DNA of 64,000 bases from Pyrrhoderma lamaoense. Its lineage: Eukaryota > Basidiomycota > Agaricomycetes > Hymenochaetales > Hymenochaetaceae. Position numbers and translations under genes: made by a program. The stretch is taken from contig NBAZ01000037.1 in assembly GCA_002794735.1 (NCBI GenBank), positions 1 to 64,000 on the forward strand, in the 5' to 3' direction. Shown here in pieces: positions 1 to 39,002 of the stretch (within the stretch, counting starts at the first letter, position 1; each line of letters begins with the position of its first letter). The notes beneath the pieces are model-generated. The model ran no database searches. It had not been told where the DNA came from and saw only the letters and a program-made list of their open reading frames with translations.

Positions 1-71
1 AATGATATGACTATGATACTTTAGATGGAAATATCACATTTGAAAAAGTCTGGGAGATCCTAAGAAAGTAA
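1..71 (+). pseudogene. 3' end of a FunK1-like kinase gene (cut by window edge)
   Basis: Positions 6-71 read as the last ~21 codons of a FunK1-type kinase like its neighbours: a YDYDTL block followed by VWEILRK and a stop at 69-71. The codon just upstream (3-5) is TGA where the other copies have Gly, so this copy may be mutated or the frame may be broken; too little lies in the window to decide. It ends in the LRK tail typical of all plus-strand members, and is the convergent partner of the gene at 285-1364. Confidence 0.6.
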
Positions 72-284
72 TGGAGACCCTATACATATATATTGTATAG
101 TTACCGTAATAGTAGTGGATCTTGTTTTCTCACTTTGAATTTTATGTAAATATGTAGTCTCCAACCTTGTAATTCAAATTGTATCAACCTTGAATCCTCA
201 AGTCATCGTATATTCTAAACCAAGTAGTACATCATAGTAACTATCTACCATCAGTCGAAACAGACGAAGAAAAGAGAAATGACC
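72..284 (+). repeat. Convergent 3' spacer, copy 1
   Basis: Spacer of about 210 bp between two convergent kinase genes. It carries the same blocks, in the same orientation, as the spacers at 2858-3060, 5640-5843, 8426-8625, 12381-12559 (diverged) and 15125-15326: a TTTCTCACTTTGAAT block, then AGTAGTACATCATAGTAACT, then a CAGTCGAAACAG block. It presumably holds both 3' UTRs and poly(A) signals. Its fixed orientation shows the array is a direct tandem repeat. Confidence 0.75.
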
Positions 285-1364
285 CTAAACCTTCATAATA
301 TCCCAGATTTTCTCAAATGTGACATTTCCGCCTAATGTGTCATAGTCAAACCCTTCAATCTCCCAATCCTTTCCCAGATATCCCCCGTCTTCCAAGAGGT
401 TATACCGCACCTCATCTAACTTGTCATAGCCAATGTGAAATAGTTTACCTAGTGGTTTTAACCACGAACTTCTGAGAGGCCGGAAAAATGCAGTATTGTC
501 TGGATTAAACGTTGTAAAAGCGCATTTCTTAGCAGCTATTGCGCGGGAGTCGCTATTAAGAATCCATTCATCATACACATTCTGAGCAGCCGATCCCGGT
601 ATCACAACCTTTTTTCCTTTATCAAAGAATCGTGCATCCCAATACATCACATAGAAGATAGATTCAAGGTCAAATCGTTCTCTATGTTCTGGGATCTCAT
701 CCTGAAATATATCGAGATGCAGACTGATTGCCATGAATGGACGCGTTCCTGTCCTAACACCTTTGTGGTTCTTCAACATAGAATTCCTTGTTATTGCAAG
801 GTCGAAATCGATCAATACCCCATTTATTTTTCCATTCACTCGTCGGTACATCAGGTTCTGACGACTGATGTCTCGGTGCATTATTTTGTGCTCGCTAATA
901 GCAAGGAAATGTATACCTGTGTTGAGTTAAAATGAGAACGTGATTAGTGTACGGACATGCTCACCAAGAACGATATGCCTGATGGCTTCCTTGTAGTCCT
1001 CGAGATCATCAAGAAGATAGATAGGTGATAGCGGTTCAATTACAATCATGCGTTGCAACATATCTTGGTCATTAATAGTTTTCAAAAACAGTCCCTTCCG
1101 TGATCCTGCAGTGATCTCCTTTATATCCGTCCACCAGTACACGCTCGGAAGACAAGATGAGAGTTTCCTGTTCTTCAGACTATACAGTTCCAGTAATTCT
1201 GGTTCTTCGGATGCTTCATTGTCCATTACGTCGTCCAGTACTTTCCTTGCCTTTTCAATCATATCATATTCACTTCCCCTGTCCGACCATAACCAGCTTG
1301 TCTTCAGTGCCAATGTGCCGTTCGTAGCCCCGCCCACCATATTTGTGAAATGAAAAGCGCCCAT
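285..1364 (-). CDS. FunK1-like protein kinase, array copy 1
   Basis: Two exons (1364-965 and 916-285) with a 48-nt GT..AG intron give 343 aa. The start is the MGAF-type ATG shared with the copies at 4560, 6923 and 14051. Visible kinase elements: beta-3-like LALK with Lys21, catalytic loop MHRDISRQN with HRD at 147-149, IDFDLA at 170-172 (DFD in place of DFG, as in this family), then an RTGTRPFMA activation/P+1 segment. It lacks the long N-terminal region and most of the Gly-rich loop of typical FunK1 proteins, so it is a short form. It carries C-terminal cassette type A (GKLFHIGYDKLDE) and the minus-strand tail WDIMKV. It is divergent from 1805-2857 across a shared 440 bp promoter. Substrate unknown. 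Confidence 0.85.
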
Positions 1365-1804
1365 TTTTCTTCAGTCATCAATCTGGCTTTCTTGCATGCA
1401 ACTTCCCAAGTCTTCAGACATTGCTCATCGTAGGATTGAAAGAAATGCGACACGCTAATGTCTGATACGCACGTGTTCGGTTTATGAAGAGAAACTAATA
1501 TATAAGTCTACATTTGTGCACCACCTCAAACAACTGAGTATACTACACATATTTTACTTATATCACATACCTCAGTGAATGAGTCTGTTATTTTCTAATT
1601 TGAAATAAATTACAGTGAGCAAAAAATAGTGAGGTAAATGTATTCACTCGTGGCAGCTTCCACCAGTGAAGACTTCCGTGACTTAGGTCTTGTTATGATT
1701 ATAGAATAAATGTGTTTTACCGATGTTTTTTCAATTAACTTGTTCTGAAACGCACTTATTTCTTCGTGAACAACAGAATCTCTCATCTCTTCCACGGCTA
1801 TGAC
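1365..1804. promoter_or_regulatory. Bidirectional promoter between kinase copies 1 and 2
   Basis: This 440 bp stretch separates the start codons of two divergent kinase genes and contains no gene of its own. Its reverse complement is almost base-for-base identical to 4122-4559, so the two regions are the same promoter in opposite orientation. A TATATA-like stretch lies near 1498-1506, about 135 bp upstream of the minus-strand ATG. Promoter function is inferred from position and conservation. Confidence 0.6.
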
Positions 1805-2857
1805 ATGAGTGACTATCAGACACTCCTTATAGTGAAGACGAGCTGGCTATCGTCAGACCGAGAATGTGAATATGATATGATTGAAAAAGCAAGGGAAGCG
1901 CTGGACGACATGATGGACAATGAGGTATCCGAAGAACCAGAATTACTTGAACTGTATAGTTTGAAGAACAGGGAACTCTCGTCGTGTCTACCGAATGTGT
2001 ACTGGTGGAGGGAACTAAAGGAGATCGCGGCAAGATCACGGACAGGACTGTTTTTGAAAACATGTAACGATAAAGACATAGTACAACGTATGACTGTGCT
2101 TGAACAACTGTCGCCTATCTATATCCTTGATAACCTTGAAGACTACAAGGAGGCCATCAGGCATATCGTTCTTGGTAAGATTGTCTCTTTACTATTCATA
2201 TCTTTTATCTAAAATACTACAGGAATCCATTTCCTTGCTATCAGCGACCAGAAAATTATGCACCGAGACATCAGTCGTCAGAATCTGATGTTCCGACGCG
2301 TGAATGGGAGTGTGAATGGAGTATTGATTGATTTCGACCTCGCGTCGACAAGGGAGTCTATGTTGAAGAGTCACAAAGGTGTTCGGACAGGGACGCGCCC
2401 ATTCATGGCAATCAGTCTGCATCTTGGTAGAGGTCAGAATGAGATCCCAGAACATAGAGAACGATTTGACCTTGAATCTATCTTCTATGTGATGTATTGG
2501 GATGCACAATTTTTCGATAAAGGAAGAAAGGTTGTGCTACCGGGATCTGCGGCTCAGAATAGTTATAATGATTGGATTACATATAACGATGAGACCGCGA
2601 TAGCTGTTAAGAAAGACGCTTTTATAAGGCCTATTCCAGACATAACTGAATTTTTCGAACCTCTTGAGGATATATGGCTGTATTCACTAGGCTTTATGTT
2701 TTACACTGGATACAACGAACTGGATGACCAGAGGAGCACGCTCAGAAGGAGAAGGAAAGATAGGCTCGTTAAGGATTGGGAGATTGAAGGATTTGACTAT
2801 GATACATTAGGAGGAAAAGTCACTTTTGAAAGAGTCTGGGAGGTCCTAAGAAAGTAG
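1805..2857 (+). CDS. FunK1-like protein kinase, array copy 2
   Basis: Exons 1805-2174 and 2223-2857 with a 48-nt intron give 334 aa. The ATG chosen begins MSDYQT, shared with the copies starting at 4121, 7373 and 13613; an upstream in-frame ATG at 1766 is not conserved. Lys11 is the beta-3-like lysine, HRD is at 137-139 and DFD at 160-162. The body is the GRGQNEIPEH variant, identical over most of its length to the copy at 3061-4121. The C-terminal cassette is type C (FFEPLEDIWLYSLG, with basic TLRRRRKDR) and the tail is the plus-strand WEVLRK. It converges on the copy ending at 3061/3129. Confidence 0.85.
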
Positions 2858-3060
2858 TGTATACCTCACATATTTTTTTACATAGAAGTGAATCTTTATT
2901 TTCTCACTTTGTATACTATGCAAATATGTAGTCTCCAACCGTTATTCAAATTGCATCACCCTTGAATCCTTAAGTCATCGTATTTTAACTACAAAGTAGT
3001 ACATCATAGTAACTATCTTTTATGCGCCAGTCGAAACAGAAGAAGAAAAGAGAAATGATC
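2858..3060 (+). repeat. Convergent 3' spacer, copy 2
   Basis: About 200 bp between two convergent kinase stops, with the same ordered blocks and orientation as spacer copy 1. It sits at the centre of the large inverted repeat 285-5639 and acts as its non-inverted loop. Confidence 0.75.
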
Positions 3061-4121
3061 CTAAACCCTCATAATATCCCAGATTGTCTCAAACGTGACA
3101 TTTCCGCCTAATGTGTCATAGTCAAACCCTACAATCTCCCAATCCTTTCCCAATCCTTTCCCAACTTTTCCTCCTTTGCCAAGAGGTCATTTCGCACCTT
3201 CTTCAGTTTGCCGTAGCCATCGTAAAGTAGCTCACCCAGTGGTAGTAACCATGATTTTATGAGAGGCCAGAAAAAATCAGTTATGTCTGGATTAAGCGTT
3301 GTGAAAGCGTCTTTCTTAACAGCTATCGCGGTCTCATCGTTATATGTAATCCAATCATTATAACTATTCTGAGCCGCAGATCCCGGTAGCACAACCTTTC
3401 TTCCTTTATCGAAGAATTGTGCATCCCAATACATCACATAGAAGATAGATTCAAGGTCAAATCGTTCTCTATGTTCTGGGATCTCATTCTGACCTCTACC
3501 AAGATGCAGACTGATTGCCATGAATGGGCGCGTCCCTGTCCGAACACCTTTGTGACTCTTCAACATAGACTCCCTTGTCGACGCGAGGTCGAAATCAATC
3601 AATACTCCATTCACACTCCCATTCACGCGTCGGAACATCAGATTCTGACGACTGATGTCTCGGTGCATAATTTTCTGGTCGCTGATAGCAAGGAAGTGGA
3701 TTCCTGTAGTGTTTTAGATAAAAGATATGAATAGTAAAGAGACAAGCTTACCAAGAACGACATGCCTGATGGCCTCCTTGTAGTCTTCAAGGTTATCAAG
3801 AAGATAGATAGGTGATAGTTGTTCAATAACAATCACGCGTTGCACCACATCATGTTCATTAGTAGTTTCCAGTAACAGTCCTGTCCGTGATCTTGCAGTG
3901 ATCTCCTTTAGTTCCCTCCACCAGTACACAATCGGTAGACACGACGAGAGTTTCCTGTTCTTCAAACTATACAATTCCAGTAACTCTGGTTCTTCGGATA
4001 CCTCATTGTCCATCATGTCGTCCAGCGCTTTCCTTGCTTTTTCAATCATATCAGCCTCACTTTCCCTGTCTGACAATAGCGAGCTTGTCTTCAGTATATG
4101 GGGTGTCTGATAGTCACTCAT
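3061..4121 (-). pseudogene. FunK1-like kinase, array copy 3, 3'-frameshifted by an 11-bp duplication
   Basis: Exon 1 is 4121-3752, then a 48-nt intron, with exon 2 from 3703. The reading frame stops at 3129 (about 314 aa) because the 11-bp unit AAAGGATTGGG occurs twice in tandem near 3141-3165. Without the extra copy the frame would run to 3061 and end in WDIMRV like other minus-strand members. HRD and DFD are intact, so a protein shortened by some 25 residues with an altered tail could still be made. Exon 1 and most of exon 2 mirror copy 2 (1805-2857) almost exactly. The C-terminal cassette is type B (GELLYDGYGKLKK). Confidence 0.75.
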
Positions 4122-4559
4122 GTCATAGCCGTGGAAGATGAGAGATTCTGTTGTCCACGAAAAAATAAGTGCGTTTCAGAACAAGTTAATTGAAAAAACA
4201 TCGGTAAAACACATTTATTCTATAATCATAACAAGACCTAAGTCACGGAAGTCTTCACTGGTGGAAGCTGCCACGAGTGAATACATTTACCTCACTATTT
4301 TTTGCTCACTGTAATTTATTTCAAATTAGAAAATAACAGACTCATTCACTGAGGTATGTGATATAAGTAAAATATGTGTAGTATACTCAGTTGTTTGAGG
4401 TGGTGCACAAATGTAGACTTATATATTAGTTTCTCTTCATAAACCGAACACGTGCGTATCAGACATTAGCGTGTCGCATTTCTTTCAATCCTACGATGAG
4501 CAATGTCTGAAGACTTGGGAAGTTGCATGCAAGAAAGCCAGATTGATGACTGAAGAAAA
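4122..4559. promoter_or_regulatory. Bidirectional promoter between kinase copies 3 and 4 (inverted)
   Basis: 438 bp between divergent ATGs. It is the near-perfect reverse complement of 1365-1804, so the MGAF-type gene is now on the right and the MSDY-type gene on the left. A TATATA-like stretch near 4421-4430 precedes the plus-strand ATG by about 135 bp. Confidence 0.6.
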
Positions 4560-5639
4560 ATGGGCGCTTTTCATTTCACAAATATGGTGGGCGGGGCTAC
4601 GAACGGCACATTGGCACTGAAGACAAGCTGGTTATGGTCGGACAGGGGAAGTGAATATGATATGATTGAAAAGGCAAGGAAAGTACTGGACGACGTAATG
4701 GACAATGAAGCATCCGAAGAACCAGAATTACTGGAACTGTATAGTCTGAAGAACAGGAAACTCTCATCTTGTCTTCCGAGCGTGTACTGGTGGACGGATA
4801 TAAAGGAGATCACTGCAGGATCACGGAAGGGACTGTTTTTGAAAACTATTAATGACCAAGATATGTTGCAACGCATGATTGTAATTGAACCGCTATCACC
4901 TATCTATCTTCTTGATGATCTCGAGGACTACAAGGAAGCCATCAGGCATATCGTTCTTGGTGAGCATGTCCGTACACTAATCACGTTCTCATTTTAACTC
5001 AACACAGGTATACATTTCCTTGCTATTAGCGAGCACAAAATAATGCACCGAGACATCAGTCGTCAGAACCTGATGTACCGACGAGTGAATGGAAAAATAA
5101 ATGGGGTATTGATCGATTTCGACCTTGCAATAACAAGGAATTCTATGTTGAAGAACCACAAAGGTGTTAGGACAGGAACGCGTCCATTCATGGCAATCAG
5201 TCTGCATCTCGATATATTTCAGGATGAGATCCCAGAACATAGAGAACGATTTGACCTTGAATCTATCTTCTATGTGATGTATTGGGATGCACGATTCTTT
5301 GATAAAGGAAAAAAGGTTGTGATACCGGGATCGGCTGCTCAGAATGTGTATGATGAATGGATTCTTAATAGCGACTCCCGCGCAATAGCTGCTAAGAAAT
5401 GCGCTTTTACAACGTTTAATCCAGACAATACTGCATTTTTCCGGCCTCTCGTCAATTCATGGTTACTATCACTGGGTGAACTATTTTACGATGGCTACAG
5501 CAAACTGAAGAAGGTGCGAAATGACCTCTTGGCAAAGGAGGAAAAATTGGGAAAGGATTGGGAGATTGAAGGGTTTGATTATGACACATTAGGCGGAAAT
5601 GTCACATTCGAAAAAATCTGGGAGATCCTCAGGAAATAA
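4560..5639 (+). CDS. FunK1-like protein kinase, array copy 4
   Basis: Exons 4560-4959 and 5008-5639 with a 48-nt intron give 343 aa. From the start codon to the FNPDNTAFFRPL block it appears identical to copy 1 on the opposite strand. It then switches to cassette type B (SLGELFYDGYSKLKK) and ends with the plus-strand tail WEILRK. Lys21, HRD (147-149) and DFD (170-172) are present. The abrupt switch inside exon 2 marks a recombination or conversion breakpoint near 5450. Confidence 0.85.
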
Positions 5640-5843
5640 TAGATGCCTCGCATATATGTTACATAGCAGTAAACCAGAAATTTCTCACTTTGAATACTAC
5701 GTAAATACATAGTCTGCAACCTTGTAATTCAAACTGAATCACGCATGGAGCCTGAAGCCATCTTATATTCAAAACCAAGTAGTACATCATAGTAACTATC
5801 TACCATTCGCCAGTCGAAACAGATGAAGAAAAGAGAAATGATC
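5640..5843 (+). repeat. Convergent 3' spacer, copy 3
   Basis: About 200 bp between convergent stops with the conserved TTTCTCACTTTGAAT and AGTAGTACATCATAGTAACT blocks, in the same orientation as the other spacers. Confidence 0.75.
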
Positions 5844-6923
5844 CTAAACCTTCATAATATCCCAGATTTTCTCAAATGTGACATTTCCGTTTAATGTGTC
5901 GTAGTCAAACCCCTCAATCTCCCAATCCTTTCCCAGATATCCCCCGTCTTCCAAGAGGTTATCCCGCACCTCATCTAACTTGTCATAGCCAATGTGAAAT
6001 AGTTTACCTAGTGGTCTTAACCACGAACTTCTGAGAGGCCGGAAAAATGCAGTATTGTCTGGATTAGACTTTTTAAAAGTGCATTTCTTAACAGCTATCG
6101 CGGTCCCATCGTTATATGTAATCCAATCATTATAACTATTCTGAGCCGCAGATCCCGGTAGCACAACTTTTTTTCCCTTATCGTAGAATTGTGCATCCCA
6201 GTACATCACATAGAAGATAGATTCAAGGTCAAATCGTTCCCTATGTTCTGGGATCTCATCCTGGCCTCTACCAAGATGCAGACTGACTGCCATGAATGGA
6301 CGCGTTCCTGTCCGAACACCTTTGTGGCTCTTCGCTACAGAATTCCTTGTCGACGCGAGGTCGAAATCAATCAATACTCCATTCACACTCCCATTCACGC
6401 GTCGGAACATCAGATTCTGACGACTGATATCTCGGTGCATTATTTTGTGCTCGCTGGTAGCAAGGAAATGTATACCTGTGTTGAGTTAAAATGAGAACGT
6501 GATTAGTGTACGGACATGCTCACCAAGAACGATATGCCTGATGGCTTCCTTGTAGTCCTCGAGATCATCAAGAAGATAGATAGGTGATAGCGGTTCAATT
6601 ACAATCATGCGTTGCAACATATCTTGGTCATTAATAGTTTTCAAAAACAGTCCCTTCCGTGATCCTGCAGTGATCTCCTTTATATCCGTCCACCAGTACA
6701 CGCTCGGAAGACAAGATGAGAGTTTCCTGTTCTTCAGACCATACCGTTCCAGTAATTCTGGCTCTTCGGATGCTTCATTGTCCATTACGTCGTCCAGTAC
6801 TTTCCTTGCCTTTTCAATCATATCATATTCACTTCCCCTGTCCGACCATAACCAGCTTGTCTTCAGTGCCAATGTGCCGTTCGTAGCCCCGCCCACCATA
6901 TTTGTGAAATGAAAAGCGCCCAT
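5844..6923 (-). CDS. FunK1-like protein kinase, array copy 5
   Basis: Exons 6923-6524 and 6475-5844 with a 48-nt intron give 343 aa. Exon 1 is the MGAF type, nearly identical to copies 1 and 4. The exon 2 body is a different variant (STRNSVAKSH, GRGQDEIPEH), closer to the MSDY-associated body, so the two exons have different histories. Kinase residues Lys21, HRD and DFD are intact. It has C-terminal cassette type A and the minus-strand tail WDIMKV. It is divergent from copy 6. Confidence 0.85.
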
Positions 6924-7372
6924 TTTTCTTCAGTCATCAATCTGGCTTTCTTGCATGCAACTTCTCTTAACTTCAGACATTGCTCATCGTAGGACTGAAA
7001 CAAGTGCGACACGCTTATTGTTTGTTATACACGTGTCCCGTTTAGGAAGAGTAACTAACATATAAATATATATTTGTGCACCACCTCAAACAACTGAGTA
7101 TACTCAATATATTTTACTTATATTAATACCACAGTGAATGAGTCTGTTATTTTCCAATTTAAAATAAATTACAGTGAGCAAAAAATAGTGAGGTAAATGT
7201 ATTCACTCGTGGCAGCTTCCACCGGTAAAGACTTCCGTGACTTAGGTCTTGTTATGATTATATGATTATAGAAAAAGTGTGTTTTACCGATGTTTTTTTT
7301 CCCATTTACTTGTTCTGAAACGCACTTATTTTTTCGTGAACAACAGAAACTCTCATCTTCCACGGCTATGAC
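6924..7372. promoter_or_regulatory. Bidirectional promoter between kinase copies 5 and 6
   Basis: 449 bp between divergent ATGs, in the same orientation as 1365-1804 but clearly more diverged: substitutions and small indels, for example in the block around 7010-7060. It contains no gene of its own. Confidence 0.55.
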
Positions 7373-8425
7373 ATGAGTGACTATCAGACACCCCATATAC
7401 TGAAGACAAGCTGGCTGTCGTCAGACCGAGAATGTGAATATGATATGATTAAAAAAGCAAGGGAAGCGCTGGACGACATGATGGACGTTGGAATAACCGA
7501 AGAACAGGAATTACTGCAACTTTATGGCCTGACAAATAGAAGACTCGCATCTTGTCTTCCGAGCGTGTACTGGTGGATGGATATTAATGAGACCACTGCA
7601 GGATCACGGACGGGACTGTTTATGAAAACTTGTAGTGGTAAAGATGTGGTACAACGTGTGATTGTACTTGAACCGCTATCACCTATCTATCTCCTTGATG
7701 ATCTCGAGGACTACAAGGAAGCTATCAGGCATATCGTTCTTGGTGAGCATGTCTGTATACTTTTCATGCTTCTTATCTGATTTACTACAGGAATCCACTT
7801 CCTTGCTATCAGCGACCAGAAAATTATGCACCGAGACATCAGTCGTCAGAATCTGATGTTCCGACGCGTGAATGGGAGTGTGAATGGAGTATTGATTGAT
7901 TTCGACCTCGCGTCGACAAGGGAGTCTATGTTGAAGAGTCACAAAGGTGTTCGGACAGGAACGCGCCCATTCATGGCAGTCAGTCTCCATCTCGGTAGAG
8001 GTCAGAATGAGATCCCAGAACATAGAGAACGATTTGACCTTGAATCTATCTTCTATGTGATGTACTGGGATGCACAATTCTTCGATAAAGGAAGAAAGGT
8101 TGTGCTACCGGGATCTGCGGCTCAGAATAGTTATAATGATTGGATTACATATAACGATGAGACCGCGATAGCTGTTAAGAAAGACGCTTTTATAAGGCCT
8201 ATTCCAGACATAACTGAATTTTTCGAACCTCTTGAGGATATATGGCTGTATTCACTAGGCTTTATGTTTTACACTGGATACAACGAACTGGATGACCAGA
8301 GGAGCACGCTCAGAAGGAGAAGGAAAGATAGGCTCGTTAAGGATTGGGAGCTCGAAGGATTTGACTATGATACATTAGGAGGAAAAGTCACTTTTGAAAG
8401 AGTCTGGGAGATCCTAAGAAAGTAG
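7373..8425 (+). CDS. FunK1-like protein kinase, array copy 6
   Basis: Exons 7373-7742 and 7791-8425 with a 48-nt intron give 334 aa. The start is MSDYQT-type. Exon 1 diverges from the other MSDY copies after about residue 35 (VGITEEQELLQLYGL), whereas exon 2 is almost identical to copy 2, including cassette type C and the LRK tail. HRD (137-139) and DFD (160-162) are intact. The contrast between exon 1 divergence and exon 2 identity indicates segmental gene conversion. Confidence 0.85.
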
Positions 8426-8625
8426 TGTATACCTCACATATTTTTTTGCATAGAAGTGAATCTTTATTTTCTCACTTTGTATACTATGCAAATATGTAGT
8501 CTCCAACCGTTATTCAAATTGCATCACCCTTGAATCCTTAAGTCATCGTATTTTAACTACAAAGTAGTACATCATAGTAACTATCTACCATTCGCCAGTC
8601 GAAACAGAAGAAAAGAGAAATGGTC
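8426..8625 (+). repeat. Convergent 3' spacer, copy 4
   Basis: About 200 bp between convergent stops, nearly identical to spacer copy 2 (2858-3060) in its first half and in the same orientation. Confidence 0.75.
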
Positions 8626-9684
8626 CTAAACCTTCATAATATCCCAGATTTTCTCAAATGTGACATTTCCGTTTAATGTGTCATAGTCAAACCCCTCAAT
8701 CTCCCAATCCTTTCCCAGATATCCCCCGTCTTCCAAGAGGTTATCCCGCACCTCATCTAACTTGTCATAGCCAATGTGAAATAGTTTACCTAGTGGTCTT
8801 AACCACGAACTTCTGAGAGGCCGGAAAAATGCAGTATTGTCTGGATTAGACTTTTTTAAAGCGCTTTCCTTAACAGCTATCGCGGTCTCATCGTTATATG
8901 TAATCCAATCATTATAACTATTCTGAGCCGCAGATCCCGGTAGCACAACCTTTCTTCCTTTATCGAAAAATTGTGCATCCCAGTACATCACATAGAAGAT
9001 AGATTCAAGGTCAAATCGTTCTCTATGTTCTGGGATCTCATTCTGACCTCTACCAAGATGCAGACTGACTGCCATGAATGGACGCGTTCCTGGTCGGACA
9101 CTTTTGTGGCTCTTCAACATAGATTCCCTTGTCGACGCGAGGTCGAAATCAATTAATACTCCATTTACTTTCCCATTCACTCGTCGGTACATCAGATTCT
9201 GACGACTGATGCCTCGGTGCATTATTTTGTGCTCGCTGGTAGCAAGGAAATGTATACCTGTGTTAGATTAGAATGGGAACGCAGATAGTATATAGACATG
9301 CTTACCAAGAACGACATGTCTGATGGCCTCCTTATAGTCTTCGAGATCATCAAGAAGATAGATAGGTGATAGCGGTTCAATTACAATCACGCGTTGCACC
9401 ACATCATGATCTTTACAAGTTTTCAAAAATAGTCCCGTCCGTGATCCTGCAGTGATCTCCTCTATATTCCTCCACCAGTACACGCTCGGAAGACAAGATG
9501 AGAGTTTCCTATTCTTCAGACCATACAGTTGCAGTAATTCCTGTTCTTCGGTTACTACAACGTCCGTCATGTCGTCCAGCGCTTTCCTTGCTCTTTCAAT
9601 GATATCTGCCTCACTTTCCCTGCCTGTTTCAACCCAGCTTATCTTCCATACTGACATGCCATTCGTGATGCCACCACCAGCCAT
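8626..9684 (-). CDS. FunK1-like kinase, array copy 7, catalytic Asp changed to Gly (HRG)
   Basis: Exons 9684-9306 and 9257-8626 with a 48-nt intron give 336 aa. It begins with a third exon 1 type (MAGGGITNG). The catalytic loop reads MHRGISRQN: the HRD aspartate, the catalytic base at position 142, is Gly through one transition (GAC to GGC) at about 9217. DFD is retained. The frame is otherwise open, so this is a candidate pseudokinase and not a decayed gene. It has C-terminal cassette type A and tail WDIMKV. Its divergent partner is copy 8, but the intervening region is 1.37 kb and not ~440 bp. Confidence 0.8.
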
Positions 9685-11053
9685 GTAAGAATAAACGAAG
9701 AATCTCCGTCTCGAAAGTCATTAAGACATTACTTGCGCATCCTAGGTCTCAGGTGTTGTTCCTTGCGGGAAAATGGACGCACTGTAACTGTGGCTGTACG
9801 CAGATAACCGATACGCACGTGTCCAGTTTAGAATTTGTAATCTTCTGCGCCATGTGTATTGTGTAATAATGATGGCACTTACTAGTGAGTGGCTAGGTGA
9901 ACAGAAGTTGACCGTTGCAGCTTGTGTCGCATGGCTGTGACTCAGGCCCCGCTATGTTTTCCATGTAATTCTCACTGTCAGGGAGGGCCCGCCATCACTT
10001 GACGTCGTGTGGATCATTCCAAGTGAGGCAGGATACCGTCTATTCCAACGTTAACACAGAGATTGTGTTACTAAGTCGCAGAGTGGTATATTAGCCATTT
10101 ACCTCGTTAATTGATACATGACAGATGTTGTCCTTCCGTAGGGAGAAAACAGTCGTATTTGCGGATAGTGATGACGCTTTTTCGAGTGCCCACTCTCATA
10201 GCTAAACCGATTTTTTTTCGGAAATCCTGTAAAGAATGACTTGGCCCAAAGATTGTTGTTGTCCTTTCTCCTTTTTCTATGTAAGTTGTACCGGGTCTTC
10301 TTCAAGAAACCGTCGTAAGGAATGACCCGTCAATACCTTCTACTTATTAATCCGTGAGTAGATCTTCTGAAGCCCATGATAGAGCAGTCTGAAAACACGG
10401 TAACGAAACCTTCAGAAAAAGTACAACAAAGTAACGTCTTCCCATAAGTATTCCCACTTCACAACGCCACCGTTACAAGAACGTCCTTCGACCCATCCGT
10501 TTCCTCCAGATCGATTCTGGGCGAGTATACTGCGCCAGGCCTATCATGGTACGCCAACCATAGCTATTCTGGCAAAGTAGAGATTCTGAAGGAAGACGTA
10601 CATGTACTTCCAACTCAGGGCTGGTACAAGGTAGCATATTTACTTACTTAGTACTAACAGTTATCACCTTACAAACACTATGTAGTAGTGGCCACTTCCT
10701 TTTCCAATTCATGTTATTTCATATGAAAATTCAAAAACAATATTTTCAGCAATCTCGGCAATTTAACATGAAACTTAAGAAAAACGCCCTACTTGTTTTT
10801 AGTGAGATACAATGCAAAATATTTTGATAGTTTTCATATACACTTATTGTGTTGAAAATGCTGATTGATACGCCTTCACGAGGTGGAAACTCAGAAACTG
10901 GCTTACATGTAATTTACTCTGTGCACAATGGTAATGCATGTCGCGTTCCTCTTTTCCTTACAACGAACGAAGTCCTCGGAATCGGCAGGTTGCATGCACG
11001 AGAACATGCTCTAGTGAATACTGAACAGAGCAGAACTTCTTCACTTTACATAC
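9685..11053. repeat. Expanded divergent region between copies 7 and 8; right part is one arm of an inverted repeat
   Basis: 1.37 kb between divergent ATGs. From about 9985 to 11053 it is repeated in inverted orientation at about 16386-17445, for example the segments around 10099-10300 versus 17112-17330. It is unrelated in sequence to the ~440 bp promoters of the other pairs. I see no convincing gene: short open frames differ in frame between the two arms, which argues against coding. It presumably contains the promoter of copy 8. Confidence 0.65.
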
Positions 11054-12112
11054 ATGGCAGGTGATGGAAATACAAAGGGCACATTAGTATTGAAGACGAG
11101 CTGGGTACCATCAGGTAGGGAAAGTGAGGCAGATGTCATTGAAAGAGCAAGGAAAGCGCTGGACGACATGACGGACAATGAAGTATCCGAAGAACCAGAA
11201 TTACTGGAACTGTATGGTCTGAAGAACAGGAAGCTCTCATCTTGCCTCCCGAAGGTATACTGGTGGAGGGATATTAAGGAGATCACATCAAGATCCCGAG
11301 CAAGTCTGTTTTTGAGTAGATGTAACGATAAGGAAATAGTACAACGGCTGACTGTGCTTGAACAACTGTCTCCTATCTATCTTCTTGATGATCTCGAAGA
11401 CTACAAGGAGGCCATCAGGCATATTGTTCTTGGTAAGCATGCCCGTATACTATTCATAACTTTTATCTAATTTACTACAGGAATCCACTTCCTTGCTACC
11501 AGCGAGCAGAAGATTATGCACCGAGACATCAGTCGTCAGAACCTGATGTACCGACGAGTGAATGGAAAAGTAAATGGAGTATTGATCGATTTCGACCTCG
11601 CATCGTCAAGGAAGTCTATAGCGAACAGCCACGAAGGTGTTCGGACAGGAACGCGTCCATTCATGGCAGTTAGTCTCCATCTTGAAATATTTCAGGATGA
11701 GATCCCAGACCATAGAGAAAGATTTGACCTTGAATCTATCTTCTATGTGATGTATTGGGATTCGCAGTTCTTCGATAAAGGAAAAAAGGTTGTGCAACCA
11801 GGATCGGCGGCTCAGAATGTCTATGATGAATGGATTCTGAATAGCGACTCCCGCGCAATAGATGCTAAGAGGGGCGTTTTCACAAGACTCATACCAAACC
11901 AAACTGCATTTTTCAGGCCTCTCAGAAGTTCATGGTTAAAACCACTAGGTAAACTATTTCACATTGGCTATGGCAAGCTAGATGAGGTGCGGGATGGCCT
12001 CTTGGAGGACGGGGGATATCTGGGAAAGGATTGGGAGATTGAAGGATTTGACTATGACACATTAGGCGGAACTGCCACTTTTGAAAGAGTCTGGGAGGTC
12101 CTAAGAAAGTAA
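11054..12112 (+). CDS. FunK1-like protein kinase, array copy 8
   Basis: Exons 11054-11432 and 11481-12112 with a 48-nt intron give 336 aa. The start is MAGDGNTKG-type; Lys14, HRD (140-142) and DFD (163-165) are intact. The body is the LEIFQDEIPDH variant and the C-terminal cassette is type A, found otherwise only on minus-strand members, but the tail is the plus-strand WEVLRK. Exon 1 is closely related to copy 11 on the other strand (shared SRSRASLFLSRCNDKE block). Confidence 0.85.
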
Positions 12113-12118
12113 TGTATG

Positions 12119-12380
12119 CCCAATAGATGCTAAGAAAGGCGTTTTTACGAGGCCTATTCCAGACATAACTGCATTTTTCGAACCTCTTGAGGACACATGG
12201 TTGTATCCATTAGGCCGAATTTTTAATACGGGCTACACCAAACTAGATGGCCAGAGGGGCAAGCTCAGAAGGCGAGGGAAAGACAGGTCCGCTAAGGATT
12301 GGGAAATCGAAGGATTTGACTATAATACATTGGGAGGAAATGTATCATTTGAGAAATTCTGGGGGATCCTAAGAAAGTAG
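12119..12380 (+). pseudogene. Orphan 3' fragment of a FunK1-like kinase
   Basis: Starting within 7 bp of the stop of copy 8, this stretch reads in one frame as the last ~86 codons of a kinase of cassette type C (FFEPLEDTWLYPLGRIFNTGY, tail WGILRK) with stop at 12378-12380. It begins at the AIDAK block, the same place where copy 8 has that sequence, so it looks like the leftover of unequal crossing-over in exon 2. It has no start, exon 1 or catalytic loop. Confidence 0.75.
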
Positions 12381-12559
12381 TGGATAACTCACACAAATAT
12401 GTTATGTAGTATTGAATCTTTATTTTCTCACTTCGAATACAATGTAAATACTTAGTTCATAACCTTAAATCGCCTTATATTCTAGAGTAAGTGAAAAAGA
12501 AATATAGTATTCTATCTACCATTCACCAGTTGCAACAGAATAATAATGATAAAATGACC
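12381..12559 (+). repeat. Convergent 3' spacer, copy 5 (diverged)
   Basis: About 180 bp between the fragment's stop and the stop of copy 9. It keeps the TATTTTCTCACTT and CTATCTACCATTCACCAGT blocks in the common orientation but is the most diverged spacer. Confidence 0.6.
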
Positions 12560-13613
12560 CTAAAGCCTCATAATACTCCAGATTTTCTCGAATGTGACAT
12601 TTCCGCCTAATGTATTATAGTCAAATCCTTCGATTTCCCAATCCTTAGCGGACCTGTCTTTCCCTCGCCTTCTGAGCTTGCCCCTCTGGCCATCTAGTTT
12701 GGTGTAGCCCGTATTAAAAATTCGGCCTAATGGATACAACCATGTGTCCTCAAGAGGTTCAAAAAATGCAGTTATGTTTGCAGTGTAACCCAGTCCAAAA
12801 ACGCATTTTTTTAAATCTATTATGCAACCGTCGTCACTTTGGACCCATTTATCGTATTCTTTCTGAGCCGTTGATCCCGGTAGCACAACCTTTTTTCCTT
12901 TATCAAAGAATTGTACATCCCAGTACATCACATAGAAGATAGATTCAAGGTCAAATCGTTCTCTATGTTCTGGAATCTCATCCTGACCTCTACCAAGATG
13001 CAGACTGACTGCCATGAATGGACGCGTTCCTGTCCGAATACCTTTGTGGTTTTTCAACATAGAATTCCTTGTTGTTGCAAGGTCGAAATCGATCAGTACT
13101 CCATTTACTTTTCCATTACCTCGTCGGTACATCAAATTTTGACGACTTATATCTCGGTGCATAATTTTCTGCTCGCTGATAGCAAGGAAGTGGGTTCCTG
13201 TGTTAGATTAGAATGGGAACGCAGATAGTATATAGACATGCTTACCAAGGACGATATGCCTGATAGCCTCCTTATAGTCTTCGAGATCATCAAGAAGATA
13301 GATAGGTGATAGTTGCTCAATAACAATCACGCGTTGCATCACATCATGTTCATTAGTAGTTTCCAAAAACAGTCCTGCCCGTGACCTTGCCGTGATCTCC
13401 TTTATATCCCTCCACCAGTACACATTCGGTAGACACGACGAGAGTTCCCTGTTCTTCAAACTATACAGTCCAGTAATTCTGGTTCTTCGGACATCACAAC
13501 GTCCATCATGTCGTCCAGCGCATCCCTTGCTTTTTCAATCATATCAGCCTCACTTTCCCTGTCTGACAATAGCCAGCTTGTCTTCAGTATATGGGTGTCT
13601 GATAGTCACTCAT
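12560..13613 (-). pseudogene. FunK1-like kinase, array copy 9, with two 1-bp frame breaks in exon 1
   Basis: Exon 2 (13197-12560) is fully open with HRD, DFD, cassette type C and tail WSIMRL. Exon 1 should start at 13613 (MSDYQT type), but two single bases are missing relative to copies 2 and 3: one near 13595 (a four-base C/G run has three) and one near 13469 (TT to T in CAGTTCC). The frame is therefore broken twice. Because similar single-base losses occur in conserved single-copy genes elsewhere in this window, they may be sequence errors and not real mutations. Confidence 0.65.
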
Positions 13614-14050
13614 GTCATAGCCGTGGAAGAGATGAGAGTTTCTGTTGTCCACAAGAAAGTAAGTGCGATTCCAAACAAGTTAATTGAAAAATCATCGGTA
13701 AAACACACTTTTTCTATAATCATATAGTCATGACAAGACCTAAGTCACGGAAGTCTTCACCGGTGAAGCTGCCACGAATGAATACATTTAACTCACTGTT
13801 TTATTACTCACTGTAATTTATTTTAAATTGGAAAATAATAGCTTCATTCACTGTGGTATATGATATTAGTAAAATATATTGAGTATACTCAGTTGTTTGA
13901 GGTGGTTCGCAAATAGATATTTATAGATTATTTGCTCGTCATAAACCGGACACGTGCGTATCAGACATTAGCGTGCCGCACTTCTTTCGATCCTACGATG
14001 AGCAATGTCTGAAGACTTGGGAAGTTGCATGTAAAAAAGACTGAAGGAAA
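13614..14050. promoter_or_regulatory. Bidirectional promoter between kinase copies 9 and 10 (inverted)
   Basis: 437 bp between divergent ATGs, in the same orientation as 4122-4559 (MSDY-type gene left, MGAF-type gene right) and moderately diverged from it. No gene of its own. Confidence 0.55.
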
Positions 14051-15124
14051 ATGGGAGCATTTCATTTCATCAGTATGGTGGGAGGAACTACGAACGGCAC
14101 ATTAGTACAGAAGACAAGCTGGCTATTGTCAGACAGGGAAAGTGAATATGATATGATTGAAAAAGCAAGGGAAGCGCTGGACGACATGATGGACAATGAA
14201 GTATCCGAAGAACCAGAATTACTGGAACTGTATGGTCTGAAGAACAGGAAACTCTCGTCGTGTCTACCGAATGTGTACTGGTGCAGGGAACTAAAGGAGA
14301 TCATGGCAAGATCACGGGCAGGACTGTTTTTGAAAACATGTAACGACATGGTACAACGTATGACTGTGCTTGAACAACTGTCTCCTATCTATCTTCTTGA
14401 TAACCTTGAAGACTACAAGGAAGCTATCAGGCATATCGTTCTTGGTGGGCATGTCTGTATACTTTTCATGCTTCTTATCTGATTTACTACAGGAATCCAC
14501 TTCCTTGCTATCAGCGACCAGAAAATTATGCACCGAGACATTAGTCGTCAGAATCTGATGTTCCGACGCGTGAATGGGAGTGTGAATGGAGTATTGATTG
14601 ATTTCGACCTCGCGTCGACAAGGGAGTCTATGTTGAAGAGTCACAAAGGTGTTCGGACAGGAACGCGCCCATTCATGGCAGTCAGTCTCCATCTCGGTAG
14701 AGGTCAGAATGAGATCCCAGAGCATAGAGAACGATTTGACCTTGAATCTATCTTCTATGTGATGTACTGGGATGCACAATTCTTCGATAAAGGAAGAAAG
14801 GTTGTGCTGCCAGGATCCGTGGCTCAGAATAGTTACAATGATTGGATTACATATAACGATGAGACCGCGATAGCTGTTAAGGAACACGCTTTCAAAAAGT
14901 CTAATCCAGACAATACTGCATTTTTCCTGCCTCTCAGAAGTTCGTGGTTAAAACCACTGGGTGAACTATTTTACGATGGCTACAGCAAACTGCAGAAGGT
15001 GCGAAATGACCTCTTGGCAAAGGAGGAAAAGTTGGGAAAGGATTGGGAGATTGAAGGGCTTGACTATGACACATTAGGCGGAACTGTCACATTTGAAAAA
15101 ATCTGGGAGATCCTCAGGAAATAA
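14051..15124 (+). CDS. FunK1-like protein kinase, array copy 10
   Basis: Exons 14051-14444 and 14493-15124 with a 48-nt intron give 341 aa. Exon 1 is MGAF type with a two-residue in-frame deletion (NDMVQR where relatives have NDKDIVQR) and Cys for Trp in the VYWC motif. The exon 2 body is the GRGQNE variant otherwise typical of MSDY genes. The C-terminus is a hybrid: LRSSWLKPLG from type A runs straight into GELFYDGYSKL of type B, an internal junction near 14965. Tail WEILRK. HRD and DFD are intact. Confidence 0.85.
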
Positions 15125-15326
15125 TAGATGCCTCGCATATATGTTACATGGAAACAAACCAGAAATTTCTCACTTTGAATACTACGTAGTTACATAGTCT
15201 CCAATCTTGTAATTTAAACTGAATCACGCATGGGGCCTGAAGTCATCTTATATTCAACACAAAGTAGTACATCATAGTAACTATCTACCATTCGCCAGTC
15301 GAAACAGAAGGAAGGAGAAATGACCT
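15125..15326 (+). repeat. Convergent 3' spacer, copy 6
   Basis: About 200 bp between convergent stops, very close to spacer copy 3 (5640-5843) and in the same orientation. Confidence 0.75.
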
Positions 15327-16385
15327 TTAAGTCCTCATAATATCCCAGATTTTCTCAAATGTGACATTTCCGCCCAATGTGTCATAATCAAACCCCTCAA
15401 TCTCCCAATCCTTTCCCAACTTTTCCCCCTTTGCCAAGAGGTCATTTCGCACCTTCTTCAGTTTGCCGTAGCCATCGTAAAATAGTTCACCCAGTGATAA
15501 TAACCATGAATTGATGAGAGGCCGGAAAAATGCAGTTATGTCTGGATTAAGCGTTGTTAAAGCGTGTTCCTTAACAGCTATCGCGGTCTCATCGTTATAT
15601 GTAATCCAATCATTGTAACTATTCTGAGCCACGGATCCTGGTAGCACAACCTTTTTTCCTTTATCGTAGAATCGTGCATCCCAATACACCACATAGAAAA
15701 TAGATTCAAGGTCAAATCGTTCTCTATGGTCTGGCATCTCATCCTGAAATATTTCAAGATGCAGACTAACTGCCATGAATGGGCGCGTTCCTGTCCGAAC
15801 ACCCTTGTGGCTCTTCGCTATAGAATTCCTTGACGATACGAGGTCGAAATCAATCAATACTCCATTCACTTTCCCATTCACGCGTCGGTACATCAGATTC
15901 TGACGACTGATGTCTCGGTGCATAATTTTCTGCTCGCTGGTAGCAAGGAAATGGATTCCTGTAGTAAATTAGATAAAAGGTATGAATAGTATATAGACAT
16001 ACTTACCAAGAACGATATGCCTGATGGCCTCCTTGTAGTCTTCAAGATCATCAAGAAGATAGATAGGCGACAGTTGTTCAAGCACAGTCAGCCGTTGTAC
16101 TATTTCCTTATCGTTACATCTACTCAAAAACAGACTTGCTCGGGATCTTGATGTGATCTCCTTAATATCCCTCCACCAGTATACCTTCGGGAGGCAAGAT
16201 GAGAGCTTCCTGTTCCCCAGATCATGCAATTCCAATAGCCCTGGCTTTTCAGATATCTCATTGCCCATCATACCGTCCAGCGTTTCCCTTGCTTTTTCAA
16301 TGATATCTGCCTCGCTTTCCCTACCTGATGGTACCCAGCTCGTCTTCAATACTACTGTGCCCTTTGTATTTCCATCATTTGCCAT
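15327..16385 (-). CDS. FunK1-like protein kinase, array copy 11
   Basis: Exons 16385-16007 and 15958-15327 with a 48-nt intron give 336 aa. The start is MANDGNTKG-type, matching copy 8; an upstream TTG at 16418 is not a plausible eukaryotic start. HRD (140-142) and DFD (163-165) are intact. The body is of the LEIFQ type, the C-terminal cassette type B, and the tail minus-strand WDIMRT. Its upstream region is the inverted copy of that of copy 8. A plus-strand divergent partner, expected to the right, is not recognisable. Confidence 0.85.
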
Positions 16386-17445
16386 GTATGTAATGTAAAG
16401 AAGTTCTGCTCCGTTCAATATTCATAGAGCATGTTCTCATGCATGCAACCTGCCGATTCCGAGGACTTCGCTCGTTGTAAGGAAAAGAGGAACGCGGCAC
16501 GCATTACTATTGTGCACACATGTATATCGGGTAGCGAGTAAATTAAGCCAGTTTCTGAGTTTCCACCTCATGAAGGCGTATCAATCAGTATTTTTAACAC
16601 AATAAGTGTATATGAAAATTATCAAAATATTTTGCATTGTATCTCACTAAAAACAAGTAGGGCGTTTTTTTAAAATTTCATGTTAAATTGCCGAGATTGC
16701 TGAAAATATTGTTTTTGAATTTTCATATGAATTAACATGAATTGGAAAAGGAAGTATCCACTACTCATAGTGTTTGTAAGGTGATAACTGTTAGTACTAC
16801 CTTGTACCGGCCCTGAGTTGGAAGTACATGTACGTCTTCCCTCAGAATCCCTACCTTGCCAGAATAGCTATGGTTGGCGTACCATGATAGGCCTGGCGCA
16901 GTATACTCGCCCAGAATCGATCTGGAGGAAACGTATGGGTCGAAGGACTTTCTTGTAACGGTGGCATTGTGAAATGGGAATGCTTCTGGAAGACGTTACT
17001 TTGTTGTACTTTTTCTGAAGGTTTCGTTACCGTGTTTTCAGACTGCTCTATCATGGGCTTCAGAAGATCTACTCGCGGATAAATAGGTAGAAGGTATTGA
17101 CGGGTCATTCCTTACGACGGTTTCTTGAAGAAGACCCGGTACAACTTACATAGAAAAAGGAAAAAGGACAACAACAATCTTTGGACCAAGTCATTCTTTA
17201 CAGGATTTCCAAAAAAAATCGGTTCAGCTATGAGAGTGGGCACTCGAAAAAGCGTCGTCACTATCCGCAAATCAGACTGTTTTCTCCCTACGGGAGGACA
17301 ACATCTGTCATGTATCAATTAACGAGGTAAATGGTTAATATACCACTCTGCGACTTAGTAACACAATCTCTGTGTTAACGTTGGAATAGACGGTATCCTG
17401 CCTCACTTGGAATGATCCACACGACGTCAAGTGATGATGGGCCCT
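16386..17445. repeat. Right arm of the second inverted repeat (partner of 9985-11053)
   Basis: Upstream region of copy 11. Read in reverse complement it matches about 9985-11053 over its whole length with scattered substitutions and small indels. No gene is supported. Together with copies 8 and 11 it makes an inverted repeat with arms of about 2 kb around copies 9 and 10. Confidence 0.7.
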
Positions 17446-20039
17446 CCTGACAGTCAGACTTAATGGTTAGAAAAATCCGACAGAGGTTGAGAGTGGAAGG
17501 ACATTCTTTCTTTGGAGATGAGAACGTCCCAGATTTCACAGAATATATATACACGAATTTCTCTAGCACCAACAACTCCAGGTGAGGCTGTATCCTCCGG
17601 AAGAGCGAAACGAGTAACCTCAGGACAAGATAAAGCACGAGAACTGAAAAGGGAAAAGGTGCACTAAACAGTTCGAACGCACTAGACATTCCTACACTGT
17701 CTGCACAAAAATCGGGTAAATATGCTCTTGCAAGTATGAACTTCGTAAACAATCGGAGATTTGTATTCTCCCCTTTGTAAAGTACAATGAGTTGCGGTCG
17801 TCGTATCACGACAAGGCAGGTTCCGTATACTTGCCCTTATCGATATAGGTCAGGCGGTGCCTTGTCGAAGACTTCGTTTCTGGGCCTTCAATTTGCTCTA
17901 TAATAGACTCAAGTTTAACTAGGATTGAGAACGGAATGCCATTCTCTTATTTGTAAAGATGAAGATAATAGGGTTATCTCATCCTACGAATACGAGAAAG
18001 ATGTTTGAATCAACATCTCGGTGTGAGACTATATTCTCTGGAGTCAGGAAACGGGCAGCGGATGAAGAAGAAGGCGAGATTGGATTTACTTGACCTCTTG
18101 ATACAAGAAGGAACGCTCAACAATCGATGAAAGTTTTCAAGATCTTACTTGGTTACATCGAAACATATCATTAGCTCCTTTCTCAGTCAAACTGGGTGAG
18201 AGAGGAGGAGGGTGAACAGAAGGAGTGTAGTCGCTAATTCACATGTACATGGTCAGCTATATCCCCCCTAGCTCGTGCTATAAACGTCAATATTAGTGGA
18301 TTCTGGTGGATACTCTTAGGATTCTCGGAGATAAAAACGACTTAGTTTTCTTAAGGGCAATATTAAAGAAGGAGACCACCACGTGATATATCTAGAATAA
18401 AATATAAGATTGAGGTTCAATCGATTTCTACGTGATGCATTCAGTAATAGGATGCACATGTGTTTGATAAAAGGAAGAGAGGTTGATGTAGAGAGGTTGA
18501 GATGATACGTAGAAGAGTTCTAAGAGTAATCAAGTGGATAGAACGAAAAATGTTTATGGCAATAATCTATAGTGTAAATATGCTTTTTCTGAGTTTTTTA
18601 TAGGAAAAAAGCATTAAGTTTTTCGAGAGGAGTACATAGATATGTAGTTTACCCTAGTTTCTTCATATATCGCTACTTTCATCATCAAAATAGACCGCTG
18701 AATCGTCTGAAGATCGGTTTGTCTCATCTGGATTCTGGGACCTCCTTATCTTCCTAATCAGTATTCAGACTGTCGATTCTGAGAAGACGTACTCCCTCTT
18801 GAGCACCCTTGTGGTTCTACACAGACCTCCGTGTCGAAGCCGATCAAATTCAAATTATATCTCATCCACTTTCCCATGTGCTCGACGGAGCATTAGCTTC
18901 TTTTGGATTAAACCCCTGTACATTATTATTTCTCCTGCTAATAGAAAAGGGACAAATGAAGTCAAATGTTCAAGTAAGATCAGATAGCATACCATGCTCC
19001 ACTCGTATTGTTGCTATTCTCTCGATTATATTTTTCCACTGCGTCCCCTTGGACAACTGAGTTTTTGTTAGGTCATCTAATTGCTTCAATGAGCTTGTAT
19101 ACGCTTTCATTCTCTCTGTACATCGGTACCAAGCATATCTTCTGTATATAATATCCGTAGATTCATTACTAGTTGCTTGAAACATCCAGACGGTTTATGA
19201 TACCCAGGACCTTTCAAGAGTTCCTTTTCAAATAGAGTGAGAGTATTAACGCGTATTAATTGGAAAAAGATTGCGTATATCATTGTATTGTGCCAGCCGG
19301 GTAATAGACATGTATCAGTATTCTGAGTATAATGCTGAGTATTATCTGTTGCAAATATGCATGTGTTAGAATTGAAATTGATTGCGGAAAACGGGTTGAT
19401 CATAATTACTATCTTAATACTAATTTCATTCTAAAAAGCAAAAGTGACTTAGCCAGTGAATCTCTTTATTTTTAAGCAAAAGAATTCCTTTAAGTTCTAC
19501 AGTCTTCCGAGAAGTGTATTTGTAAAGGAATGAGTGCAGGTACAGATATGTTTTGGATTGTCCATGATCTTCTCACTTCCTAGTCCCACAACGAATTCTC
19601 ACAATTGCTAATATAGTAGACACACATAATCATCCATTAAAAGATACATGTTTGCTTATGTGTTTATATAGTTAACGAACATATCAGAGGAGGTAATGGT
19701 AATAAAACAGACTGTACGGATGCAGAAGAACTTGGAAGACAGAATTCGAATTCGAAAGCGAAATGTGATAGGCGGTAAGAAGGATTAGAAAGAGCCGAAC
19801 AACCGAAAAGAGTGAGTGAGAGAGACAAAAAAGAGAAGGAAAGAAAACAATAAAATAGAGGGTCGAAAAAAGAAATTAAAGGGAGCGGGAGCTATTTTCA
19901 GATGCTGATTATGTAAATGAATATGAATGCACTGTGATCAAAGTTTGCAAATGAATGGAGACAATGCTAGCGTACAAGTGAATGAAAGATGGAAATTAGT
20001 GACACCAGTGTCTTCACTCAGTCGAAAAAAGAAACTAAA
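17446..20039. other. Gene-poor flank of the kinase array
   Basis: Apart from the kinase relic at about 18660-18935, I recognise no gene here. A minus-strand open frame of about 144 codons spans 17375-17809 but overlaps the inverted-repeat arm, lacks recognisable domains, and is not conserved in frame in the other arm, so I do not call it. The segment after about 19700 is purine-rich and leads into the 3' end of NOT2. Confidence 0.5.
18660..18935 (-). pseudogene. Strongly decayed relic of a FunK1-like kinase
   Basis: The plus strand here preserves, in order, degenerate versions of the reverse complement of kinase exon 2: TTCTGGGACCTC (from TTCTGGGATCTC), CAGACTG, CCCTTGTGG.TCT, GTCGAAGCCGATCAAATTCAA (the DFD region), CCACTTTCCCATGTG and CGACGGAGCATTAG (the catalytic-loop region). 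No open frame survives. It is far more diverged than any array member, so the family was in this region before the recent copies arose. Confidence 0.5.
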
Positions 20040-27873: not shown

Positions 27874-27942
27874 GAGTAAGTTAAACCTTTCGCTGAAACC
27901 TTCTAGCCTGGCTGATGATGCTAGACCTTTCGTTGGTTGTCA

Positions 27943-38449: not shown

Positions 38450-39002
38450 ATGAGATTATGATACGTTGCTCCCTGATTATTTCACTTCACGAAAGTCGTC
38501 AAAGTGTTTTCCCTTAGCCTGGGTAGGGATCAGATTTCGATAGGCCGTTTAAATTTTGATAGAATTCAACAACTCTTGTTCTTTATATTTTTATAAAGAT
38601 GAGCAAACGATCCTTATGTTCAGTAGGTAGCAGAGCAAGAGTATCGATTTCTTCGGGTAGAGAACGAGTGTAAAGTTGAAGAAATATAGAGCGCTGATGA
38701 TGGAGAGGAGTAGACAAAGGGGGTACGCGCAACTGAGTCGTGCGCGGTCACGGTTTATATGGGAAATAACGCGTGAGTGCGTGACCAATTATCACGTTAC
38801 TGTCACACCGTATTATCACTTATATGGTAAACGATATTTCTCACGTTTACATAGCATGAGCCCCAGGAGGTACCTATTTCTCAAGCCTAATGAGTCAAAG
38901 TAATCGTGATGATATTCTTCAATTAGAGACAGTATATGTATAAGCTAGTATCACAAAAGCCTTTGTTACTGTTTCCAGTCAGAATCAGTCATGTAAGTAA
39001 AT
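38450..39002. other. Upstream region of RAD52
   Basis: 553 bp, no gene recognised. Presumed RAD52 promoter and 3' UTR of the secreted-protein gene. Confidence 0.35.

Follow-up and report, generated by a model that had tools for sequence, protein, structure and literature searches.

How can the bodies of genes in a direct tandem array face either way while their ends keep to fixed strands? This question is raised by an array of FunK1 kinase genes at the start of a contig (NBAZ01000037.1, here C37) of the fungus Pyrrhoderma lamaoense. The window, which is the whole stretch of DNA that was analysed, covers the first 64,000 bases of this contig (G000:C37:1–64000) and contains no N; coordinates refer to it unless another contig is named. 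The genome searched comprises 30.65 Mb in 72 contigs, of which C19, C22, C42, and C51 are also mentioned below, and this single assembly stands behind all the results. A first-pass annotation had explained the pattern by recombination between the inverted exon 2 copies within a divergent gene pair, acting as a shufflon-like switch. The evidence described here makes it probable that the array was formed by old recombination between inverted repeats, together with tandem duplication and gene conversion that is blind to orientation.

Turned cores and strand-locked ends

A direct tandem array of divergent FunK1 gene pairs occupies positions 1–17466, and the core of a pair is composed of the promoter, both first exons, and most of exon 2. 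As the first-pass annotation had stated, these cores alternate: self-BLAST places the MGAF-type gene on the left and the MSDY-type gene on the right in units 1 and 3, with the reverse arrangement in units 2 and 5. The unit 1 core (301–2656) matches the unit 2 core (5623–3270) in inverted orientation with 96% identity, and unit 2 matches unit 3 in the same inverted manner (90%), while positions 8–4072 and 5576–9626 are direct copies (90%) that set a direct period of 5.57 kb. The five convergent spacers and a left-end piece all align the same way, which agrees with the one-directional spacers claimed earlier. Units 4 and 6 hold other cores, MAGG/MAGD and MAND, respectively; the MAGD gene lies on the right in unit 4 and its relative MAND on the left in unit 6 (9961–12096 against 17466–15343, inverted, 90%), so core turning is not confined to the MGAF/MSDY units.

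The promoter is re-oriented together with the exons. Direct matches between units 1 and 2 end at 1308 and resume at 1833, skipping the promoter, and once turned round, the promoter aligns among four units of the window plus two copies from elsewhere, one of them partial. Among the matches listed for the unit 1 promoter, no self-inverted match longer than 10 bases was found. Inverted homologous arms flank the re-oriented DNA. The flipped-core pattern is real, and the part of the first-pass model that stands is the physical inversion of cores within a direct array, with homologous exons in inverted orientation as its likely substrate.

The array opens with the 71 terminal bases of a right-type gene truncated by the contig start (R71, 1–71, plus strand). 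Unit 1 consists of L285 (285–1364, minus strand; MGAF-type, two exons, 343 amino acids (aa), left-type end), a divergent promoter with the MGAF side on the left (1365–1804), and R2857 (1805–2857, plus strand; MSDY-type, 334 aa, right-type end). Convergent spacer s1 (2858–3060), a near copy of s3, leads to the flipped core of unit 2, with L3061 (3061–4121, minus strand; MSDY-type, frameshift near the C-terminus) and R5639 (4560–5639, plus strand; MGAF-type, 343 aa, right-type end). Spacer s2 (5640–5843), a near copy of s5, is followed by L5844 (5844–6923, minus strand; MGAF-type, 343 aa) and R8425 (7373–8425, plus strand; MSDY-type, 334 aa) in unit 3, then by spacer s3 (8426–8625, aligned with the other spacers) and unit 4, composed of L8626 (8626–9684, minus strand; MAGG-type, 336 aa, HRD changed to HRG) and R12112 (11054–12112, plus strand; MAGD-type, 336 aa). 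An extra right-type 3′ gene fragment, R12380 (12123–12380, plus strand), precedes unit 5, whose flipped core holds L12560 (12560–13613, minus strand; MSDY-type, exon 1 broken) and R15124 (14051–15124, plus strand; MGAF-type, 341 aa). Spacer s5 (15125–15326), likewise aligned with the other spacers, and L15327 of unit 6 (15327–16385, minus strand; MAND-type, 336 aa), which is turned relative to R12112, complete the series. The stretch 12113–12380 lies directly after the R12112 stop codon, and its positions 12163–12362 form a 96.5% inverted match to 12777–12578.

The near-complete genes have two exons each with a 48-bp intron between them, and nine of the 11 are open from ATG to stop, encoding 334–343 aa. 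By profile and motif, the array members are FunK1 family genes, predicted to encode kinases. Spliced L285, the only array gene tested as a spliced protein, matches Pkinase_fungal/FunK1 (PF17667) with 85.9 bits (cut-off 24.1) over profile positions 173–385 of 387, but not over the initial part of the profile; the other near-complete genes matched by exon 2. FunK1 kinases are marked by a serine that replaces lysine in the catalytic loop (HRDIS), and their functions are described in the same source as still to be elucidated (PMC3203195). The HRDIS motif is present in 10 of the 11 near-complete copies, with HRGIS in L8626. Contig C22 carries a longer form of the family, a 656-aa FunK1 open frame, and the array genes are thus N-terminally short. 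The median ratio of nonsynonymous to synonymous substitution (dN/dS) is 0.36 in 36 pairwise comparisons among nine clean genes, indicating constraint, although it is a rough guide only because the copies exchange sequence.

All 13 of the 3′ ends claimed earlier were found at the DNA level with the right positions and terminal motifs, although at 3061 the frameshift near the end of L3061 puts the motif out of frame. Some of these ends do not belong to intact genes: 12380 closes a fragment, 71 is cut by the contig start, and L12560 has the broken exon 1. The genes were split into four blocks with one tree each, the end block comprising the last 55 coding bases plus 130 downstream. In the end-block tree, left and right ends form the two sides of one branch (100/100 support), by which 13/13 window ends are sorted, and the side label needs a single change, a number as low in 1/500 shuffles. 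The same label needs four changes in exon 1, four in early exon 2, and three in late exon 2, and shuffles as low were 378/500, 388/500, and 89/500, respectively (left rows). Among the 11 near-complete genes, four positions at 12–28 bases from the end of the stop codon divide all L from all R genes, and no position does so in the remainder of the gene; none of the 461 other 6/5 splits reaches four dividing positions in the last 60 bases. The strand lock proposed earlier hence exceeds chance, but it reaches only the last 28 bases, stop codon included. In C22:1–50000, four further FunK1 copies can be placed, three of which (c22a, c22b, and c22c, read in reverse) fit the lock.

Past the stop codon, left and right flanks have an identity of 0.3–0.5, approximately that of unrelated sequence aligned with gaps. 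The lock is probably a passive end of homology, since left/right homology stops there and any homologous exchange would leave the same pattern. Shared tracts and junctions stop at differing places from gene to gene, up to approximately 28 bases before the stop. The further claim that a flip swaps catalytic halves between C-termini does not hold: the change is limited to about the last nine codons, and therefore no functional half is exchanged.

Exchange between copies and history of the units

The most striking trace of exchange is a perfect inverted copy of 1,288 bp shared by units 1 and 2, in which positions 474–1761 (plus strand; part of MGAF exon 2, exon 1, and most of the promoter) and 5450–4163 (minus strand, from the exact-repeat comparison) have zero differences and sharp edges. 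The runner-up exact repeat in 1–17500 is 282 bp long, and the MSDY exon 1 adjoining the perfect tract differs at up to 19/50 bases. The sharp edges suggest that the tract arose by conversion of a part rather than by a recent flip of the whole core. L285 and R5639 have an identical run of 891 bases, compared with a median of 58 for 45 other pairs. The longest identical runs between convergent neighbours are 281, 282, 99, 34, and 83 bases. Recent within-pair homogenisation was not found in the five divergent pairs of units 1–5, whose longest runs are 69, 69, 84, 41, and 52 bases (41–84 overall); with runs so short, no recent trace of the reaction proposed in the first-pass annotation is visible. 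As judged from these runs, recent exchanges run between units, not within pairs.

A tract scan over 30 opposite-strand and 25 same-strand pairs gave 102 shared tracts that exceed all 200 permutations of their own pair (58 opposite-strand and 44 same-strand), a figure that is neither an event count nor a strict test because alignment columns were mixed and tracts overlap among related genes. Four-gamete failures, calculated from 239 two-state sites in 11 genes, affect 36% of pairs less than 150 bases apart and 48–65% of those further apart, which speaks for exchange among the copies.

Beneath this mosaic, two unit types can be distinguished. In the spacer tree, the spacers found after MGAF/MSDY units, s1 and s3, form one pair (support 100/98), and those found after MSDY/MGAF units, s2 and s5, form another (99/100). 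The MSDY exon 1 copies of L3061 and L12560 (units 2 and 5) pair as well (98/98). Among the promoters, that of unit 5 groups with that of the C19 copy (89/97), both being MSDY-left and standing apart from those of units 1, 3, and C22; the perfect tract draws the unit 2 promoter to unit 1. With spacers and MSDY exons of their own, types A and B resemble heritable lineages. One old flip may be enough for the MGAF/MSDY units, given a small set with moderate support, and at least one more event is required for the turned MAGD/MAND gene. Unit 4 appears to have been fused from two half-units, as its homologies switch sharply at 9960/9961 in the intergenic region: C22 is matched by the MAGG half as far as 9960, and unit 6 by the MAGD half onward from 9961.

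Protein relatives from ENA suggest that chimeric genes are not recent. L15327 has a left-type terminus, and its late exon 2 groups with R5639, R15124, and L3061; protein P0001 is 96% identical to its end. Similarly, L12560 joins a left-type terminus to a late exon 2 that groups with three right copies (100/100), and protein P0002 has 94% identity to its end. If P0001 and P0002 are orthologues, as we infer, these body/end combinations predate the divergence, and the chimeric ends seem old. In 21 further ENA relatives of approximately 185 aa (P0004, P0005, and P0132–P0150 out of 32 listed, the others being more distant or of other length), 342 of 561 two-state site pairs fail the four-gamete test, with 49/186 failures at spacings below 30 residues and 105/109 at 60–90. 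Exchange among FunK1 copies seems to be common in the family, and the relatives compared may be alleles or paralogues.

A history that would account for these observations starts from a tandem array of N-terminally short FunK1 genes in divergent pairs. At least two rearrangements through inverted exon 2 homology would have turned cores, of which one may suffice for MGAF/MSDY and another would concern MAGD/MAND, and the two resulting unit types would have multiplied as tandem blocks of approximately 5.57 kb. The sequence itself shows the arrangement, the mosaic, the point at which homology ends, and the two unit types. As to the order of events, we infer that an old flip came first, that a two-unit block was then duplicated, and that part of unit 2 was converted last, with unit 1 as donor. 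The flip could have occurred by crossover or by gap repair with a turned template, probably through general machinery as in Saccharomyces, and gene conversion among copies in either relative orientation would keep reshuffling exon blocks to the present. The ends would appear strand-locked as left/right homology stops at the stop codon, before which every exchange must resolve.

Several points weigh against this account. Its base is a single assembly, and trees of recombining sequences may mislead. Because the tract permutations shuffled sites over the full alignment, with promoter columns that are poorly conserved or non-homologous among them, conserved exon stretches can exceed the permuted values even where no exchange took place. 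On the tree of six promoters, orientation needs two changes, a number as low in 295/500 shuffles; it changes once when unit 2 is left out and still twice when unit 1 is left out, and the single-flip reading thus depends on counting the unit 2 promoter as converted. In the end tree, R12112 has a long branch, of which the tree program warned, because what follows it downstream is a piece of a different gene, and its side assignment rests on the last codons. Finally, one of the four C22 copies, c22d, violates the lock.

Competing explanations and known systems

Flips that still recur today, with crossovers joining the inverted exon 2 copies within one divergent pair, are unlikely. They would fit the strand-random gene bodies, the cores of units 2 and 5 inverted relative to 1 and 3, the perfect tract of units 1 and 2 with most of a promoter in it, the unclustered orientation on the six-promoter tree, and the recurrent re-inversion of a flanked region in Saccharomyces (PMC9731477). 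However, identical runs in divergent partners do not exceed 41–84 bases, and none of the 20 exact matches of at least 100 bp in 1–17500 connects such partners. Unit types are tied to spacer types, relatives keep the body/end combinations, and a recent whole-core flip predicts uniform similarity, yet MSDY exon 1 differs beside the perfect tract. Within-pair recombination as a continuing, shufflon-like process is accordingly the part of the first-pass model that finds no support, given the short within-pair runs, heritable unit types, and lack of fixed junctions or a recombinase domain in the searches described below.

It is quite unlikely that the pattern is an assembly artefact in which repeats of 1–2 kb were joined in a false order or direction and copies became identical through polishing. 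The 1,288-bp perfect inverted repeat would indeed make 1762–4162 ambiguous to short reads, and both C37 and C19 end within FunK1 genes. The assembled order is nevertheless collinear with the next block over 4 kb (8–4072 and 5576–9626), each unit has its own diverged sequence, nine of the 11 near-complete genes are open, and the window has no N. Inverted repeated stretches are also present on C22, C42, and C51.

Pure gene conversion, by which only exon sequence moved between left and right without physical inversion, is highly improbable: the many conversion-like opposite-strand tracts agree with it, but the intergenic promoter is no inverted repeat of itself and was turned along with the exons, and so was approximately 1.08 kb upstream of MAGD/MAND.

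Bacterial shufflons are invertible segments that exchange C-terminal ends by means of a recombinase and short fixed sites. A programmed shufflon with a site-specific recombinase is barely credible here in spite of the superficial likeness of invertible segments with exchangeable C-termini, as only about nine codons are exchanged, tract ends are scattered with no short fixed crossover site found, and a search limited to the tyrosine (Phage_integrase, PF00589) and serine (Resolvase, PF00239) families, which intron-split domains could escape, gave no genome match at an E-value of 0.001. The array hence differs from bacterial shufflons in having neither fixed sites nor, among the two families searched, a recombinase.

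By analogy, the flip/flop (FF) region of Saccharomyces is the closest precedent for old inverted-repeat recombination with conversion. It is a 24-kb segment of chromosome XIV between two 4-kb inverted repeats, which are kept alike by gene conversion and in which occasional crossovers invert the DNA between them; in the laboratory, its orientation was unchanged through approximately 53,800 mitoses and 950 meioses (PMC9731477). The array resembles this region, as portrayed in the passages at hand, in its gene-bearing inverted repeats, their homogenisation by conversion, and inversion as a by-product. Unlike it, the repeats here are kinase exons of a multi-unit tandem array, and the FF region is polymorphic and repeatedly re-inverted (PMC9731477), while the flips seen in this one assembly look old. 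Inversions between human inverted repeats likewise combine inversion, recurrence, and gene conversion as a competing explanation, but their recurrence was shown across individuals and primates, and no tandem gene array figures in the passages at hand (PMC3961182). The FunK1 expansions of Paracoccidioides and Coccidioides belong to the same family and share lineage-specific duplication, non-syntenic enrichment, and the active-site serine; inverted cores, strand-locked ends, or conversion are not described in the passages at hand (PMC3203195). A literature search, with most subscription journals outside its coverage, found no prior description of such FunK1 arrays.

The array shows how inverted homology within divergent pairs can turn cores while gene ends stay put, and it offers a signature by which such arrays may be recognised, namely strand-sorted ends with strand-random bodies. 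Frequent exchange between copies also calls for caution with single-gene FunK1 trees. Should core orientation turn out to be polymorphic, this locus would offer a natural setting in which to study how gene conversion inverts DNA in a filamentous fungus. A bolder and doubtful idea is that FunK1 arrays are a recombination-driven generator of diversity in which inverted and direct units act as mutual donors. Were it true, isolates or nuclei would differ in kinase mosaics and core orientation, such variation might suit the recognition of self or rivals, and the four-gamete failures of the 21 ENA relatives (342/561) would be its trace in populations.

Extent of the array and other FunK1 loci

The array probably extends past the window, as contigs C37 and C19 both terminate within FunK1 genes. 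At C19:436111–437728, the contig end lies inside the MGAF gene of an MSDY-left unit, and the two contigs could adjoin since C19 stops in an MGAF gene and C37 opens with a right-type gene end. On the other side, a fragment at 17560–17844 (plus strand) has 73% DNA identity to the start of the 656-aa FunK1 frame of C22. The neighbours beyond are ordinary genes: a GH7 cellobiohydrolase (26459–27939), a Rad52-family repair protein (37790–38455), and a GH20 enzyme (42196–42894). Among the proteins listed for comparison with the GH7 enzyme, that of Pyrrhoderma noxium has 89% identity, and the other 119 do not exceed 79%. The presence of two haplotypes in the assembly was set aside, an 8-kb flank piece being single in the genome, and an RNA element was rejected as no Rfam match above the gathering score occurs within the window.

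Inverted copies are frequent at other loci with FunK1 matches. They account for four of the nine self-matches of at least 250 bp in C42:32001–52000 and five of 11 in C51:1–20000, involving FunK1 or other sequence, and the C42 stretch contains a 3.8-kb inverted copy with 99.6% identity. On C22, c22c and c22d are convergent with left-type ends on both, and a 762-bp inverted stretch (C22:37525–38286 and 39637–40398) is 99.6% identical. The first 587 bases of the window are 99.3% identical to C22:29946–30530, with no difference in approximately the first 353 bases at the C37 start, which reflects either a repeat common to both places or a join that the assembly left open. A FunK1 gene of C22 is split by a 13.3-kb insert (C22:16688–29944) with identical terminal inverted repeats of 1,055 bp and an apparent 8-bp target duplication. 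One of the three open frames tested in it matches the KDZ transposase (PF18758), and the insert appears to be a KDZ DNA transposon of very recent origin.

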